From Streptomyces sp. SCUT-3 (GTDB taxonomy: Bacteria > Actinomycetota > Actinomycetes > Streptomycetales > Streptomycetaceae), in the NCBI RefSeq assembly GCF_014083985.1, contig NZ_CP046907.1:2212001-2276000 (forward strand): a stretch of DNA of 64,000 nucleotides, written 5' to 3'. The notes beneath the pieces are model-generated. The model did not search any database. It was not told where the DNA came from and saw nothing but the letters and a program-made list of their open reading frames with translations. Every line of letters begins with the position of its first letter. Positions within the stretch are counted from its first letter, which is position 1. Shown piece by piece: positions 7,473 through 23,874 of this stretch. The translations under genes were made by a program, and so were the position numbers.

Positions 7473-8036
7473 ATGACCACGGCGTCCTCGCAGCGTTCTC
7501 GGCCGGAGCCGTCCGATCGGGCGGGTTACGAAGTGGAATCCGGCGTGCCGTGGGCCTACACGCTGCATCTGCCACGTGATCCGCGCGCCGTTGGGGTGGC
7601 CCGCAGGACGCTGCGGGCGGTGCTGGGCGGTTACGGGCTGCGGGAATTGGCCGACACGGCCGAGCTGCTGGCGAGCGAACTGGTCACCAACGCCCAACGG
7701 CACACCGGGGGCGCCTCGTTGATGCGGCTGAGCGGCATGGAGGGGGAACGGGTCCGAGTCGGGGTGTGGGACACCGATCCGGTGGTCCCGCCGCCGTTCG
7801 ACCGGCCGCCGCGCCGGGGCGGGGAGCGGCGGGGCGGAGGGCAGCGGGGCGGGAGCGCCCCGTCCGATCCCGGGGGCGAGGGCGGGCGCGGGCTGCTGCT
7901 GGTGCGGACGTGGGCGGACCGGTGGGGCGGGTACGCGCTGGGCGAGGCGCCGTTCGGGGCGGGCGGGAAGCTGCTGTGGTTCGAGCTCGCCGCCCGGCAG
8001 GAGGGAAGGCCGGACGGCGGGCTCCCGGCGGGGTGA
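7473..8036 (+). CDS. Anti-sigma-type ATP-binding protein (HATPase_c, RsbW-like)
   Basis: The 187-aa product carries a histidine-kinase-like ATPase fold without a kinase core. The N-box is ELVTNAQRHTGG, the G1-like box VGVWDTDP, and the G2-like box GGRGLLLVRTWADRWG. Proteins of this type are very abundant in Streptomyces. They are either anti-sigma factor kinases or partners in WhiJ/Scr1-DUF397 clusters, as the context suggests here. A Gly/Arg-rich insert (about residues 108-130) separates the G1 and G2 boxes. The ATG follows CAGGAGACTTCC. It is divergent from the Scr1-like gene. Confidence 0.82.
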   Translation: MTTASSQRSRPEPSDRAGYEVESGVPWAYTLHLPRDPRAVGVARRTLRAVLGGYGLRELADTAELLASELVTNAQRHTGGASLMRLSGMEGERVRVGVWDTDPVVPPPFDRPPRRGGERRGGGQRGGSAPSDPGGEGGRGLLLVRTWADRWGGYALGEAPFGAGGKLLWFELAARQEGRPDGGLPAG

Positions 8037-20149: not shown

Positions 20150-20752
20150 ATGAGTGACAAGCGCGCCCTCGTCCTGGCCTCCGCCTCCCCCGCCCGGCTC
20201 GGCCTGCTGCGGCAGGCGGGGATGGACCCGAAGGTGATCGTCAGCGGTGTCGACGAGGACGCGCTGTCCGCGCCGACCCCCGCGGAGCTGGCCCTGGTGC
20301 TGGCCGAGGCCAAGGCGCACGCCGTGGCGGGACTGCCCGAGGCCGCGGGCGCGCTGGTCGTCGGCTGCGACTCCGTGCTGGAGCTGGACGGGCGGGCGCT
20401 GGGCAAGCCGTCCGACGCCGAGGAGGCCGTGGTCCGCTGGAAGTCGATGCGCGGCCGCTCCGGTGTGCTGCGCACCGGGCACTGCGTGGTCGACACCGCG
20501 AGCGGCCTGCGGGTGTCCGAGACGGCCTCCACCACGGTCCGCTTCGGCACCCCCGACGACGAGGAGATCGCCGCCTACGTCGCCTCGGGCGAGCCCCTGT
20601 ACGTGGCCGGGGCGTTCACCCTGGACGGGCGTTCCGCGCCGTTCGTGGAGGGCGTCGACGGCGACCCCGGGAACGTCATCGGGCTCTCGCTGCCCCTGCT
20701 GCGCCGGCTGCTGGCCGGCCTCGGCGTGCGCATCACCGACCTGTGGGCCTGA
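20150..20752 (+). CDS. maf: Maf-family nucleotide pyrophosphatase
   Basis: Maf proteins hydrolyse non-canonical or modified nucleoside triphosphates (dTTP/UTP/m5UTP type) to monophosphates and influence septation. The 200-aa product shows the family motifs [18 protein letters not shown] at the N-terminus, [17 protein letters not shown], the WKSMRGRSG block and the late [20 protein letters not shown]. The length is standard. It follows the 41-aa membrane gene by 78 nt and shares its direction. Confidence 0.92.
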
Positions 20753-20757
20753 GACCT

Positions 20758-20949
20758 GCCCCGCTCGACCACAGTCCCGCGCAGCCTGGACACCGCGCCG
20801 CCGTGTGCGAGGTGTTCCTGACCGACTCCGCCCGGACCTCCGAGCGGGAGGTCCTCGTGGCGGCCCGGCTTCCGCGCGTGCACAGCCACTACAGCGGTCA
20901 CACGGCCACCCCGGCGTCGAACGGCTGCGCCCCGTCGTGGACGAGGTGA
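20758..20949 (+). pseudogene. Remnant of an AfsA-type gamma-butyrolactone synthase gene
   Basis: Directly after maf, a 63-codon stretch reads HRAAVCEVFLTDSARTSERE followed by VLVAARLPRVHSHYSG. This matches the start of the A-factor biosynthesis hotdog domain in AfsA/ScbA-type proteins (pattern VHRAxVAEVFLTD...RTGxxxFxVAAQxPRxHSxYxP). The frame stops at 20949, a few residues after the match ends. Downstream sequence up to about 21100 reads in another frame as VDEVIDRRFSALRRQNRPANP, with no recognisable continuation. A full gene would need about 900 bp, so this is a 5' fragment left by deletion. The assignment rests on remembered family patterns only. Confidence 0.5.
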
Positions 20950-21243
20950 TCGACCGGCGCTTCTCGGCCCTGCGGCGCCAGAACCGGCCCGCCAACCCCC
21001 GGCACCCGCAGTTCGGCCGTGGACGGACTGCGCTCCACGACGACGGTCCGTACGCGCCGTGCAGGCCGAGTTCGCATGCGGGCAGCATCCCCACGGGGCC
21101 ACCGCCGTCGACGGCGACGGCGACGGCGACGGCGAAGTGCTGGACGGGGGCGGGCACACGGGCTCCTCGTGGTCGGCCGGGGTCACCGGGACCGGAACCG
21201 GGGAGTGCGGAACCGGGGACGGCGCGGCGGGCTGTCGGGGTGG

Positions 21244-21321
21244 CGGGCGTCGGACTGTCGAGGCGTCGGGCCGTCGGGGTGTCGGGCGTCGGACTGTCGA
21301 GGCGTCGGGCCGTCGGGGTGT
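21244..21321. repeat. 39-bp tandem repeat, two exact copies
   Basis: Two identical 39-bp units (21244-21282 and 21283-21321), starting CGGGCGTCGGACTGTCGAGG, lie immediately 3' of the MFS gene stop at 21329. Partial GTCGGGG-type fragments flank them on both sides. The unit itself is built from shorter CGTCGGG motifs. No ORF here is convincing. The remaining gap (20950-21243) holds only decayed sequence. Confidence 0.85.
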
Positions 21322-21328
21322 CGGGGCG

Positions 21329-22912
21329 TCAGGCGGAGGGCTGCCGGGCGGGGCGGCCGCGCAGCAGGGCCACGACGAGCAGGCCGAGCAGCAGGCAGAC
21401 GCCGGCCAGGGTCCACAGGACGGTGTGGAACGCTCCGTCGTAGGCGGTGACGAGGAATTCGGTGAGGCCGGCCCGGTCGGCCGCCCCGGCCGCCTCCACC
21501 GCGCCGGACAGGTCGCCGGCGGCCAGGTCGCCGGCGACGGCGGGCGTGCGGTCCGCTCCGGCGAAGTCCCCGATGCCGTCCCGGACCCTGCCGGTGACCG
21601 CGGTGGCCAGCAGTGCGCCGTAGACGGCGACGGCGACGGCCTCGCTGCCCAGGCGCAGGGTGTTGAGGAAGCCGGCCGCCATGCCGGCCCTGGCGTCGTC
21701 GACGAGTTCGAGGGCCTGGCCGTCGACGAGTCCGGCGGACAGGCCCATGCCGGCTCCGGTGACGAGCATGGGCAGGGCCACCACGGCGACGACGGGGTCC
21801 GGGCCGAAGAGGGTGAGGCCGACGTCGCCGGCGACGAGGCAGACGAGGCTGACGCGGATGAGGGTGAGCGGTGCGACGCCGCGGCCGACGAGCTCGGCGG
21901 CGAGCATCGGGCAGACCAGCACAGGGAGGGTCAGGAGCACCATGGTGGCGCCGGCCGCGCTGCTGCCGAACCCGGCGACGGCGGTGAGGTAGCTGGGCAG
22001 GTAGGTCAGCATCGTCACGAAGCCGAAGGAGGCCGCGACGGGGACCATGCACAGGGCGAGGAAGCGGCGGTCGCCCAGCAGGCCCAGGTCGAGCAGGGGG
22101 TACTCGGTGCGCTTCTCCACCAGGACGAAGACGGCGAGGGCGGCGGCGGAACCCGCGAAGAGCCCGAGCACTCCCGGGGAGGCCCAGCCCCACTGCGAAC
22201 CCTGGACGATGGCGGTGGTCAGCAGCATCGTCGCGACGACGAAGACGACGCTGCCGGGCACGTCGAGGCGGGCGCCCTCGCGGCGGACGCGCGGGAAGCC
22301 CTTGGCGACGGCGGGCAGTGCGGCCGGCACCAGGCCCAGGGCCAGGGCGTGGAGGCCGAACACCCAGCGCCAGCCGAGGTTCTCGACGAACAGGCCGGAG
22401 AGGCTGGGGCCGACCGCGACCCCGACGCCGGCGACGGTGCCGAAGAGGGCGAAGGCGCGGGTGCGCTCGGGCCCGGCGAAGACGGTGGCGAGGATGGCGC
22501 TGCCGCAGGCGAAGATCGCGGCTCCGCCGACTCCGGCGAGGGCGCGGGCGACGTCCAGCAGCACCACGTTCCCCGCGAGGGCGCCGGCCAGGGAGGCGAC
22601 GGTGTAGACCGCGGCGCCCAGGGCGAAGGCGCGGAGGCGGCCGATGATGTCGGCGACCGAGCCCCACACCAGCGTTGAGCAGGCGAAGGCGACGTTGAAG
22701 GCGTTGACGACCCACTGGAGGGGGACGAGGCCGGCGTGGGTGTCGCTGCCGATGTCGGGCAGCGCGACGGCCGTCCCGGAGATCGAGGTGGGGACGACGA
22801 AGACGGCGAGCAGGACGGCGGCCAGGGTGAGGGCCCGCCGGGGGACGGGCCCGGTGTCCGGGACGCCTTCGGCGGCGTCCTGTGCCGCGGGGGCATCGGT
22901 GTGCGTGGTCAT
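21329..22912 (-). CDS. MFS drug exporter, DHA2 (14-helix) type
   Basis: Proton-driven efflux protein of 527 aa in the inner membrane. It shows about 14 hydrophobic segments, the size of EmrB/QacA-type exporters, and conserved loop residues such as WGSVADIIGRLRAFALG and the motif C-like GVGVAVGPSLSGLFVENLGW. The start MTTHTDAPAAQDAAEG is a short polar leader. Divergent from an ArsR-type regulator across 148 bp, which suggests that regulator controls it. Substrate unknown. It lies in the accessory block between maf and accA2. Confidence 0.9.
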   Translation of the reverse strand: MTTHTDAPAAQDAAEGVPDTGPVPRRALTLAAVLLAVFVVPTSISGTAVALPDIGSDTHAGLVPLQWVVNAFNVAFACSTLVWGSVADIIGRLRAFALGAAVYTVASLAGALAGNVVLLDVARALAGVGGAAIFACGSAILATVFAGPERTRAFALFGTVAGVGVAVGPSLSGLFVENLGWRWVFGLHALALGLVPAALPAVAKGFPRVRREGARLDVPGSVVFVVATMLLTTAIVQGSQWGWASPGVLGLFAGSAAALAVFVLVEKRTEYPLLDLGLLGDRRFLALCMVPVAASFGFVTMLTYLPSYLTAVAGFGSSAAGATMVLLTLPVLVCPMLAAELVGRGVAPLTLIRVSLVCLVAGDVGLTLFGPDPVVAVVALPMLVTGAGMGLSAGLVDGQALELVDDARAGMAAGFLNTLRLGSEAVAVAVYGALLATAVTGRVRDGIGDFAGADRTPAVAGDLAAGDLSGAVEAAGAADRAGLTEFLVTAYDGAFHTVLWTLAGVCLLLGLLVVALLRGRPARQPSA

Positions 22913-23060
22913 GGAGGTCTCTCCGGCGCTCGGCCCGTCCCGCGACGGGCTAGGTACGGCAAGGATCGAACCTCATCGTGGCACGCGGCGAAGGTACGAT
23001 GCAAGCAGAACCCCTGGGGCGCGCGCCCCGCGCGACGCCCGAGCCGGAAGGAGTCGGACG

Positions 23061-23393
23061 GTGCCCGACGAAGAAGGCCACCCCTCACGCGAGGAGATGG
23101 ACCTGCGGTGCGTGATGAACGCGCTCGCCGACCCGCTGCGCTACCAGGTCGTCTCGGCGCTGGTGAAGGACGCGGAGGACAAGGAGCGGCACTGCAGCTC
23201 CTTCGGCCTGCCGGTGTCGAAGTCGACCCGCACGCACCACTTCAGGATCCTGCGCCAGGCCGGGCTGATCCGGCAGGTCGACCGCGGGAACAGCCGCATG
23301 GCGCACCTGCGGCGCGCCGACCTCGACGCCCGCTTCCCCGGACTGCTGGACCTGATCAGGCAGAACCCTGCGGCGCTTCCAGGTTCGGACTGA
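23061..23393 (+). CDS. ArsR-type winged-helix regulator
   Basis: The 110-aa product has the ArsR-like winged helix: MNALADPLRYQVVSAL, the recognition helix region SKSTRTHHFRILRQAGLI, and the wing RQVDRGNSRMAHLRRAD. No metal-binding CxC is visible apart from a lone Cys in RHCSS, so the signal is more likely organic than a metal. The GTG at 23061 has a strong AAGGAG seven bases upstream. Divergent from the MFS exporter and presumably its repressor. The 3' end overlaps the convergent membrane gene by 38 bp. Confidence 0.85.
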   Translation: MPDEEGHPSREEMDLRCVMNALADPLRYQVVSALVKDAEDKERHCSSFGLPVSKSTRTHHFRILRQAGLIRQVDRGNSRMAHLRRADLDARFPGLLDLIRQNPAALPGSD

Positions 23394-23874
23394 GCGGACC
23401 GGTGCCGGGCACGGCCCCGTCGGGCGACCCGTCGCCGCCGCCCCGCCCACTGTCGTCCCGCTCGCCGTCGCCCCGCTCGGCGTCGCCCCGCTCGCCCAGG
23501 ACCACCAGACTGAGCACCTGCGCGCACAGCAGGAGCATCATCACACCGAAGGCCGCCCAGCCGACCAGCGCGGCCCCGGCCGCGCCCACCACGGCGGTCA
23601 CCACGGCCGCGGAGATCAGCAGGACGCGGCCGAAGCGCCCGGGGGCGCGGTCGCGCACCGCCGCGACCACCAGCACCAGGGCGCAGGAGAGGAAGTACAG
23701 CGCGGTCAGCACCGCGCCGGCCCACGCACCCTTCGAGGCGGCCGCGGGGTCCATGCCGGCCAGCGACATCTGCTGGTAGTCGACCATGACCCCCATCACG
23801 TAGTTGACCAGGGCGAACCCGGCCGCCTCCGCGACGAGCAGAGCCGCCGTCACCGCGAGCACCGTCCTGCGCAT
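23356..23874 (-). CDS. Four-helix integral membrane protein, function unknown
   Basis: The 172-aa product has four hydrophobic segments (about residues 7-28, 50-72, 84-106 and 108-126) and an acidic, Gly/Asp-rich cytoplasmic tail with an ERGD repeat. No family name recognised. I recall a similar predicted membrane protein beside accA2 in S. coelicolor, so this gene is probably the older resident. The exporter and regulator would then have been inserted between it and maf. Its 3' end overlaps the ArsR-type gene by 38 bp. Confidence 0.7.
   Translation of the reverse strand: MRRTVLAVTAALLVAEAAGFALVNYVMGVMVDYQQMSLAGMDPAAASKGAWAGAVLTALYFLSCALVLVVAAVRDRAPGRFGRVLLISAAVVTAVVGAAGAALVGWAAFGVMMLLLCAQVLSLVVLGERGDAERGDGERDDSGRGGGDGSPDGAVPGTGPLSPNLEAPQGSA

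Follow-up and report, generated by a model that had tools for sequence, protein, structure and literature searches.

Remains of an afsA-type gene cluster with a surviving exporter and ArsR-type regulator behind maf in Streptomyces sp. SCUT-3

Immediately behind maf, Streptomyces sp. SCUT-3 carries what is very probably the wreck of a gene cluster. The segment 20753–23527 appears, from sequence comparison, to be an insert that the compared relatives lack, and to have lost part of the cluster that it formerly carried, one of the afsA > HAD > P450, FAD, MFS, ArsR type. We found it in a 64,000-nt window, the whole stretch of DNA analysed here (contig NZ_CP046907.1, positions 2,212,001–2,276,000, from a genome of 6.08 Mb, G000). 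The window keeps afsA, P450, FAD, MFS and ArsR sequence in the order and orientation of the intact clusters of other genomes, the first three genes as scraps.

The afsA/scbA remnant (20755–20918, plus strand) was recognized by profiles and by DNA homology. It consists of about the first 60 codons of the gene minus the first ~8, has a one-base frameshift before HRAA and ends after ...TPAS; judged by these matches it is a frameshifted N-terminal stub of an AfsA/ScbA gene. It lies in an open reading frame of 68 residues (20743–20949; ...HRAAVCEVFLTDSARTSEREVLVAARLPRVHSHYSGHTATPASNGCAPSWTR), which contains the peptides quoted by the original prediction, a fossil AfsA-type gene at 20758–20949. Residues 12–54 of this frame match positions 3–45 of the 290 of the NCBIfam profile NF041195 (ScbA_BarX) with E 5.8e-8 and 32.3 bits, short of the whole-protein cut-off of 200 bits, and residues 17–54 match positions 3–40 of the 133 of Pfam PF03756 with E 0.021 and 15.3 bits, under the cut-off of 24. 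The Pfam search, which had been proposed as the check, thus gave a match, but one that is insufficient by itself to decide AfsA identity because it falls under the cut-off. With both cut-offs missed, the AfsA of the window is, on these scores, a fragment and no functional member of the family. Its homology to members of the family exceeds chance, as is seen from the NF041195 E value and from the shuffles, none of which was as good (0 of 300 and 0 of 200).

The controls agreed at both levels. In protein comparison of 20753–21328 (576 bases), the stub scored 158 against a maximum of 74 in 300 shuffles, and no score among 300 real decoys equalled it. In DNA comparison, with segment limits for the scraps that were fixed after the cluster DNA comparison, it scored 99.6 bits against 33.7 for the best of 200 dinucleotide shuffles and 41.0 for the best of 200 real decoy stretches (0/200 each). 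Across 150 Streptomycetaceae genomes, our own counted in, 44 had matches to the stub at E 0.001, and the five nearest other homologues, all in open frames, are 62–69% identical to it over 42 residues. The stub DNA is 73–77% identical to that of the five intact clusters used for DNA-level comparison of the scraps (L144–L147 and L214; E 4e-17 to 1e-24). In the longest match this homology starts at 20755, three bases past the maf stop (20752). Its other end is at 20896 in four clusters and, in one, at 20918, where P450 homology starts; the final ~10 codons up to the stop at 20949 do not belong to AfsA. The fossil behind maf is therefore real, although both of its predicted limits had to be moved.

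The P450 scrap (20911–20979, plus strand; GVERLRPVVDEVIDRRFSALRR) corresponds, in protein and DNA comparison, to about residues 110–135 of the cluster P450, and the remainder of that gene left no trace in the window. Its protein score was 81 against 70 for the best of 300 shuffles, with no equal among 300 decoys, and its DNA score was 43.7 bits against 36.5 for the best shuffle and 38.3 for the best decoy (0/200 each). At E 0.05 its DNA matched four of the five clusters, with values from 3e-6 (L147) to 0.006 (L146) and no match in L145; the scrap is short, and chance matches in the same search reach E 5e-4. The scrap of the FAD monooxygenase gene (21013–21118, minus strand) has the Rossmann motif VAVDGGGPVGMLPACELGLHG within the peptide GGGPVGMLPACELG; it covers about residues 10–31 and a little beyond, with a two-base gap in the DNA alignment. 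All five clusters matched its DNA, at 68.0 bits against 40.1 for the best shuffle and 42.8 for the best decoy (0/200 each). In protein comparison a gapped match scored 88 against 76 for the best of 300 shuffles, and none of 300 decoys equalled it. The ungapped core reached 76–77, about the value of the best shuffle and decoy (76), so it is chiefly the DNA match that supports the FAD scrap. When the cluster P450 and FAD proteins were searched against the whole genome, their 17 and 16 matches included neither scrap, and six further reading frames of the stub region had no match in Pfam. A further candidate P450 piece, HPQFGRG (the heme-loop reads HLQFGYG), was dropped, being weak and overlapping the FAD-matching DNA stretch.

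The sixth gene of the cluster, encoding a HAD phosphatase, is not represented. It left no trace in 20753–21328 (score 36, equalled or bettered by 248 of 300 shuffles), and the best HAD match in the genome is a 29% partial one elsewhere; its former presence here would thus have to be read from the relatives. Likewise, 21119–21328 has no cluster homology (its score is reached by 16 of 200 shuffles and 33 of 200 decoys). A (CGACGG)4.5 microsatellite (21109–21135) overlaps the FAD scrap at the end on which the FAD gene would be expected to start. A tandem repeat of about three copies of a 39-base unit (21224–21349) crosses the 3′ end and stop codon of the MFS gene; a 35-base piece of its unit, searched with up to three mismatches, was found in no third place in the window.

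What remains whole is the exporter and the regulator. The MFS gene (21329–22912, minus strand) encodes a DHA2/EmrB-like protein of 527 aa, 64–71% identical to the MFS proteins of the five nearest afsA loci (tblastn). The regulator gene (23061–23393, plus strand) encodes 110 aa from an assumed GTG start; the product is 72–77% identical to the cluster ArsR (tblastn) and 68–77% identical to eight relatives over aligned codons. Both genes were judged intact from their reading frames, homology and codon pattern, and they diverge in the window as they do in the compared clusters. We call the regulator ArsR-type on resemblance: it scored 42.1 bits with NF041413 (Rv2640c-type), below the cut-off of 155, and no Pfam family matched at E 1e-5. 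In comparisons with the window copies, differences were fewest at the second codon position and most frequent at the third in 13 of 13 cases for MFS and 7 of 8 for ArsR (the exception being L186). This pattern, much like that between intact copies, is as expected under purifying selection.

The insertion as a whole (20753–23527) is flanked on the left by an intact maf (20150–20752, plus strand), an open reading frame 74–85% identical to maf of 80 named loci, and on the right by the antisense open reading frame m172 (23356–23874, minus strand), which encodes a small membrane protein. Its edges, defined by DNA homology in five named relatives, are sharp: the homology ends at 20749–20763 and returns at 23528–23547, and in these five relatives other sequence of ~0.1 to 2.5 kb fills the spot. 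For a survey of the interval between maf and accA2 we took the best 80 of 306 maf loci in named relatives; four of the 80 did not span it, which left 76 intervals. Their median length is 973.5 bp, against 3543 bp in the window, and m172 is present in many of them (in 45 of the 76 if its position is defined strictly). afsA, MFS and ArsR are each absent from all 76, and the synteny check called for by the original prediction, for an intact afsA homologue in this interval, accordingly came out at 0 of 76, again among the best 80 of 306 loci, which rules out maf–accA2 as the usual home of afsA. Two relatives (L036 and L067) have ~2.4–2.5 kb between maf and m172, without afsA, MFS or ArsR; with extra sequence at the same spot, the maf–m172 interval may be a favoured insertion site.

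The original prediction had further noted a tandem repeat and an exporter/regulator pair in the block up to accA2, and had supposed that a larger insertion once carried a signalling cluster that was then deleted. The repeat and the pair are both real, and the pair proves to be part of the cluster itself rather than a neighbour in the same block. Insertion, cluster and deletion are borne out by the ordered P450 and FAD scraps and the intact MFS and ArsR genes, while the word signalling comes from the AfsA family, on which the view of the product as a signal depends.

The intact form of the cluster was seen in neighbourhoods of 16–17 kb around the five nearest AfsA homologues (L144–L148). Four of the five have afsA, HAD phosphatase, P450, FAD monooxygenase, MFS and ArsR genes, with afsA, HAD and P450 on one strand, FAD and MFS on the other, and then ArsR; the fifth (L148, in genome G052) has afsA, MFS and ArsR only. 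A wider search for this type of AfsA at E 1e-60 found it in 11 of 394 family genomes. The six neighbourhoods added in this way comprise two full clusters (L214, and L216 with a different gene order) and four with afsA and HAD but without this MFS or ArsR, two of which end at contig ends. The full six-gene cluster was thus seen in 6 of 394 family genomes. AfsA–HAD pairs with 34–36% AfsA identity also occur on plasmids, namely on Rhodococcus records (H1–H3) and on one from Streptomyces (L213), where genes of fatty-acid type surround the pair.

The window and the intact clusters also share operator-like sites between MFS and ArsR. A palindrome, AGGTWCG-N8-CGWACCT, occurs twice between the MFS and ArsR genes of the window, at 22952–22973 (AGGTACGGCAAGGATCGAACCT; 14 of 14 consensus positions) and at 22992–23013 (AGGTACGATGCAAGCAGAACCC; 12 of 14). 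The consensus was derived from the aligned MFS–ArsR intergenic regions themselves, where at least two palindromes at 11 or more of 14 are found in all 13 ArsR-bearing loci and in the window. Nowhere else in the genome is the consensus matched perfectly, as it is at 22952; two other palindromes, each with one mismatch, fall within open reading frames and were put down to chance. Palindromes upstream of afsA had no part in deriving the consensus, and in 7 of 7 afsA loci with this ArsR one of them (12–14 of 14) lies at −42 to −61 bp from the assumed afsA start, which amounts to about four independent cases, as four of the seven loci (L144–L146 and L148) are closely related and their sites are nearly identical. 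In the afsA loci without this ArsR, no site above 9 of 14 was found within 300 bp (4 of 4). Background sequence of 1.37 Mb yielded 59 palindromes with at least 11 of 14 positions, 7 with at least 12 and none with at least 13; one further palindrome of 13 of 14, in L192, lies away from MFS, ArsR and afsA genes. Upstream of the stub in the window, which adjoins maf, there is no palindrome, consistent with its loss at the maf junction. The presence of the same palindrome before afsA and at MFS–ArsR ties synthesis to export, and we regard it as evenly balanced whether the ArsR protein would repress both the exporter and the afsA operon until released by a ligand.

Measured against the intact cluster of L147, at least two internal deletions, of ~1.9 and ~2.3 kb, very probably removed most of the afsA, P450 and FAD genes, and with them the HAD gene, if it was ever present here. 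The remaining afsA was broken by the frameshift and by loss of its 5′ end, and the exporter, the ArsR gene and the two shared palindromes were left whole. By analogy with known pathways, AfsA of an intact cluster would condense a β-ketoacyl thioester with dihydroxyacetone phosphate, the HAD enzyme would take off the phosphate, the P450 and the FAD enzyme would oxidise the butenolide, and the MFS protein would export the product. This product should be an oxidised butenolide and would probably be the ligand of ArsR. A query for ScbR-type receptors gave only noise-level matches in the window and in the clusters (one query; window, L144–L148, L214 and L216), which makes ArsR the obvious candidate for the sensor of the product. 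In SCUT-3, synthesis is dead, and the ArsR–MFS unit probably continues to respond to this compound, or to a similar one, when others produce it, and to export it. More broadly, the intact clusters may form a butenolide system with an ArsR-type repressor as receptor, instead of an ArpA-type TetR protein, and with one palindrome at the synthase and the dedicated exporter. Synthesis would then have been lost repeatedly (in G000, and probably in G052 and G175) with sensor and exporter kept under selection, such that some lineages detect and export a signal whose production they have given up. We offer this wider proposal tentatively, with rather more doubt than belief.

The same wreck could have had another job. 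It is a serious possibility, falling a little short of an even chance, that what the cluster made was no signal but a compound of defence or detoxification, the FAD enzyme and the DHA2 exporter being resistance genes and MFS–ArsR a drug-efflux switch. The cluster FAD enzyme (497 aa; FAD_binding_3 and Rng_hyd_C) has polyketide oxygenases as its nearest solved structures and a rifampin monooxygenase further down, and in profile searches the MFS protein resembles tetracycline, tetracenomycin and lincomycin exporters, under the cut-offs. MFS–ArsR without the four biosynthetic genes in several genomes, and the lack of a ScbR-type receptor in the cluster stretches with the one query used, would also suit such a role. 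However, the palindrome before afsA in every locus with this ArsR and in none of the four without it links synthesis to export, and AfsA, HAD and an oxygenase together are the known set for butenolide and furan signals (PMC7564063 and PMC7037778).

The order of events can also be read differently. MFS relatives of the window copy were found at E 1e-100 in 13 other genomes of the 150, in four full clusters, one locus with afsA, MFS and ArsR (L148), one with P450, ArsR, MFS and FAD (L191), five with MFS and ArsR only, and two (L189 and L193) with MFS but no ArsR match in the compared stretch. All four biosynthetic genes are missing in 7 of the 13 (compared stretches), so the MFS–ArsR pair also lives alone. 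A lone pair might then be ancestral, with biosynthetic genes added in some lineages, and gained and then lost in that of the window; this is conceivable, though we lean against it. The MFS tree, built from 16 rows without L189 and L193, would allow it: full and lone loci are mixed, and supported branches force at least two changes, in either direction. The tree gives the window copy no supported position. What looks like loss, however, is the case of L188 (G175), whose MFS groups with those of full clusters at 100/100 and which has MFS, ArsR and the same two neighbours as the full clusters (64% and 92% identical), but none of the four biosynthetic genes. L148 has the same neighbours and keeps MFS and ArsR with three biosynthetic genes missing, and the two look like separate losses. 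Loss of biosynthetic genes fits the distribution of MFS loci best.

Some of these loci are curious in themselves. L191 (G106) lacks afsA and HAD in the compared stretch, and its genome gave no AfsA match at E 1e-6. L189 (G060) has two palindromes (at 7763 and 7803 of that locus), no ArsR match and a TAG inside the MFS match, and is perhaps at a still later stage of decay. A supposed FAD remnant beside the lone MFS gene of G059 was dropped, since its score of 73 on a 1.5-kb stretch is below that of the best of 300 shuffles (76, on 576 bases).

It is very improbable that the 68-residue frame is a working gene for a small AfsA-derived protein. It is true that the frame is open, and that against L214 the scrap has 5, 7 and 18 differences at codon positions 1, 2 and 3, a pattern still coding-like relative to intact genes; but this excess at third positions fits recent death equally well, and suggests it, and the frame overlaps the maf stop, is without the first AfsA residues in frame, has P450-like sequence at its end and covers only profile positions 3–40 of 133 of the AfsA domain. 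Still less credible is a chance landing of an afsA fragment next to an unrelated MFS–ArsR pair, since, even with pairs of this type alone elsewhere, it is already contradicted by the P450 and FAD scraps between them in cluster order and orientation, and the MFS and ArsR genes match the cluster copies.

Read as the remains of an intact cluster, the insertion is a small-molecule cluster caught dying, with order, strand and operator-like sites still readable, and an example of an exporter and regulator outliving the biosynthetic genes. It also draws attention to afsA clusters of a rare family that have an ArsR-type switch and their own exporter, and whose intact members make testable the export of butenolide/butyrolactone signals and the existence of non-TetR receptors.

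Elsewhere in the SCUT-3 genome, no AfsA exceeds the PF03756 cut-off; one match of 13.2 bits, under the cut-off, was set aside. An AfsA over this cut-off is present in 128 of the 150 family genomes. The genome has one ScbR/ArpA-type receptor (221 bits against a cut-off of 150; G000:C1:4314091–4314642; L205 and L220), 2 Mb away from the stub. Its gene lies near an MFS gene (34%) and an open reading frame judged SARP-like by eye. The arrangement of a classical γ-butyrolactone system, with an ArpA/ScbR-type TetR receptor beside the synthase, is not seen here with the one ScbR-type query used. Among ScbA/BarX/AfsA γ-butyrolactone synthases (NF041195 and PF03756), the intact AfsA of L147 falls inside the family (218 bits against 200, and 148 against 24), in contrast to the window copy, a stub under both cut-offs.

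Our literature search, with subscription journals mostly outside it, found no description of an AfsA cluster with an ArsR regulator. Several known systems are close in other respects. The SrrA and SrrB repressors of S. rochei are of the TetR type. In the SRB butenolide genes srrX-srrP-srrO on pSLA2-L of that species, an AfsA-type synthase likewise has a phosphatase and a P450 nearby, according to PMC7564063. Compared by that description only, a dehydrogenase (srrG), a thioesterase (srrH) and the repressor genes srrA and srrB surround srrX, whereas here there are an FAD monooxygenase, an MFS exporter and ArsR. The methylenomycin furan genes mmfL-mmfH-mmfP and the ahfa genes of Streptomyces sp. 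RK44 likewise combine an AfsA-like butenolide synthase, a phosphatase and a flavin monooxygenase (PMC7037778, in the part consulted). Their regulators are of the TetR type, AhfaH has 384 aa against 497 aa for the cluster FAD enzyme, again by description only, and the same part of that source names no exporter or ArsR. In S. albus J1074, the portion of PMC3937824 consulted reports that the signal genes are absent and one receptor homologue is kept, much as SCUT-3 has no synthase over the cut-off and one TetR-type receptor. That portion describes no remnant of the lost synthase, whereas in SCUT-3 the remnants are visible together with the surviving exporter and regulator.
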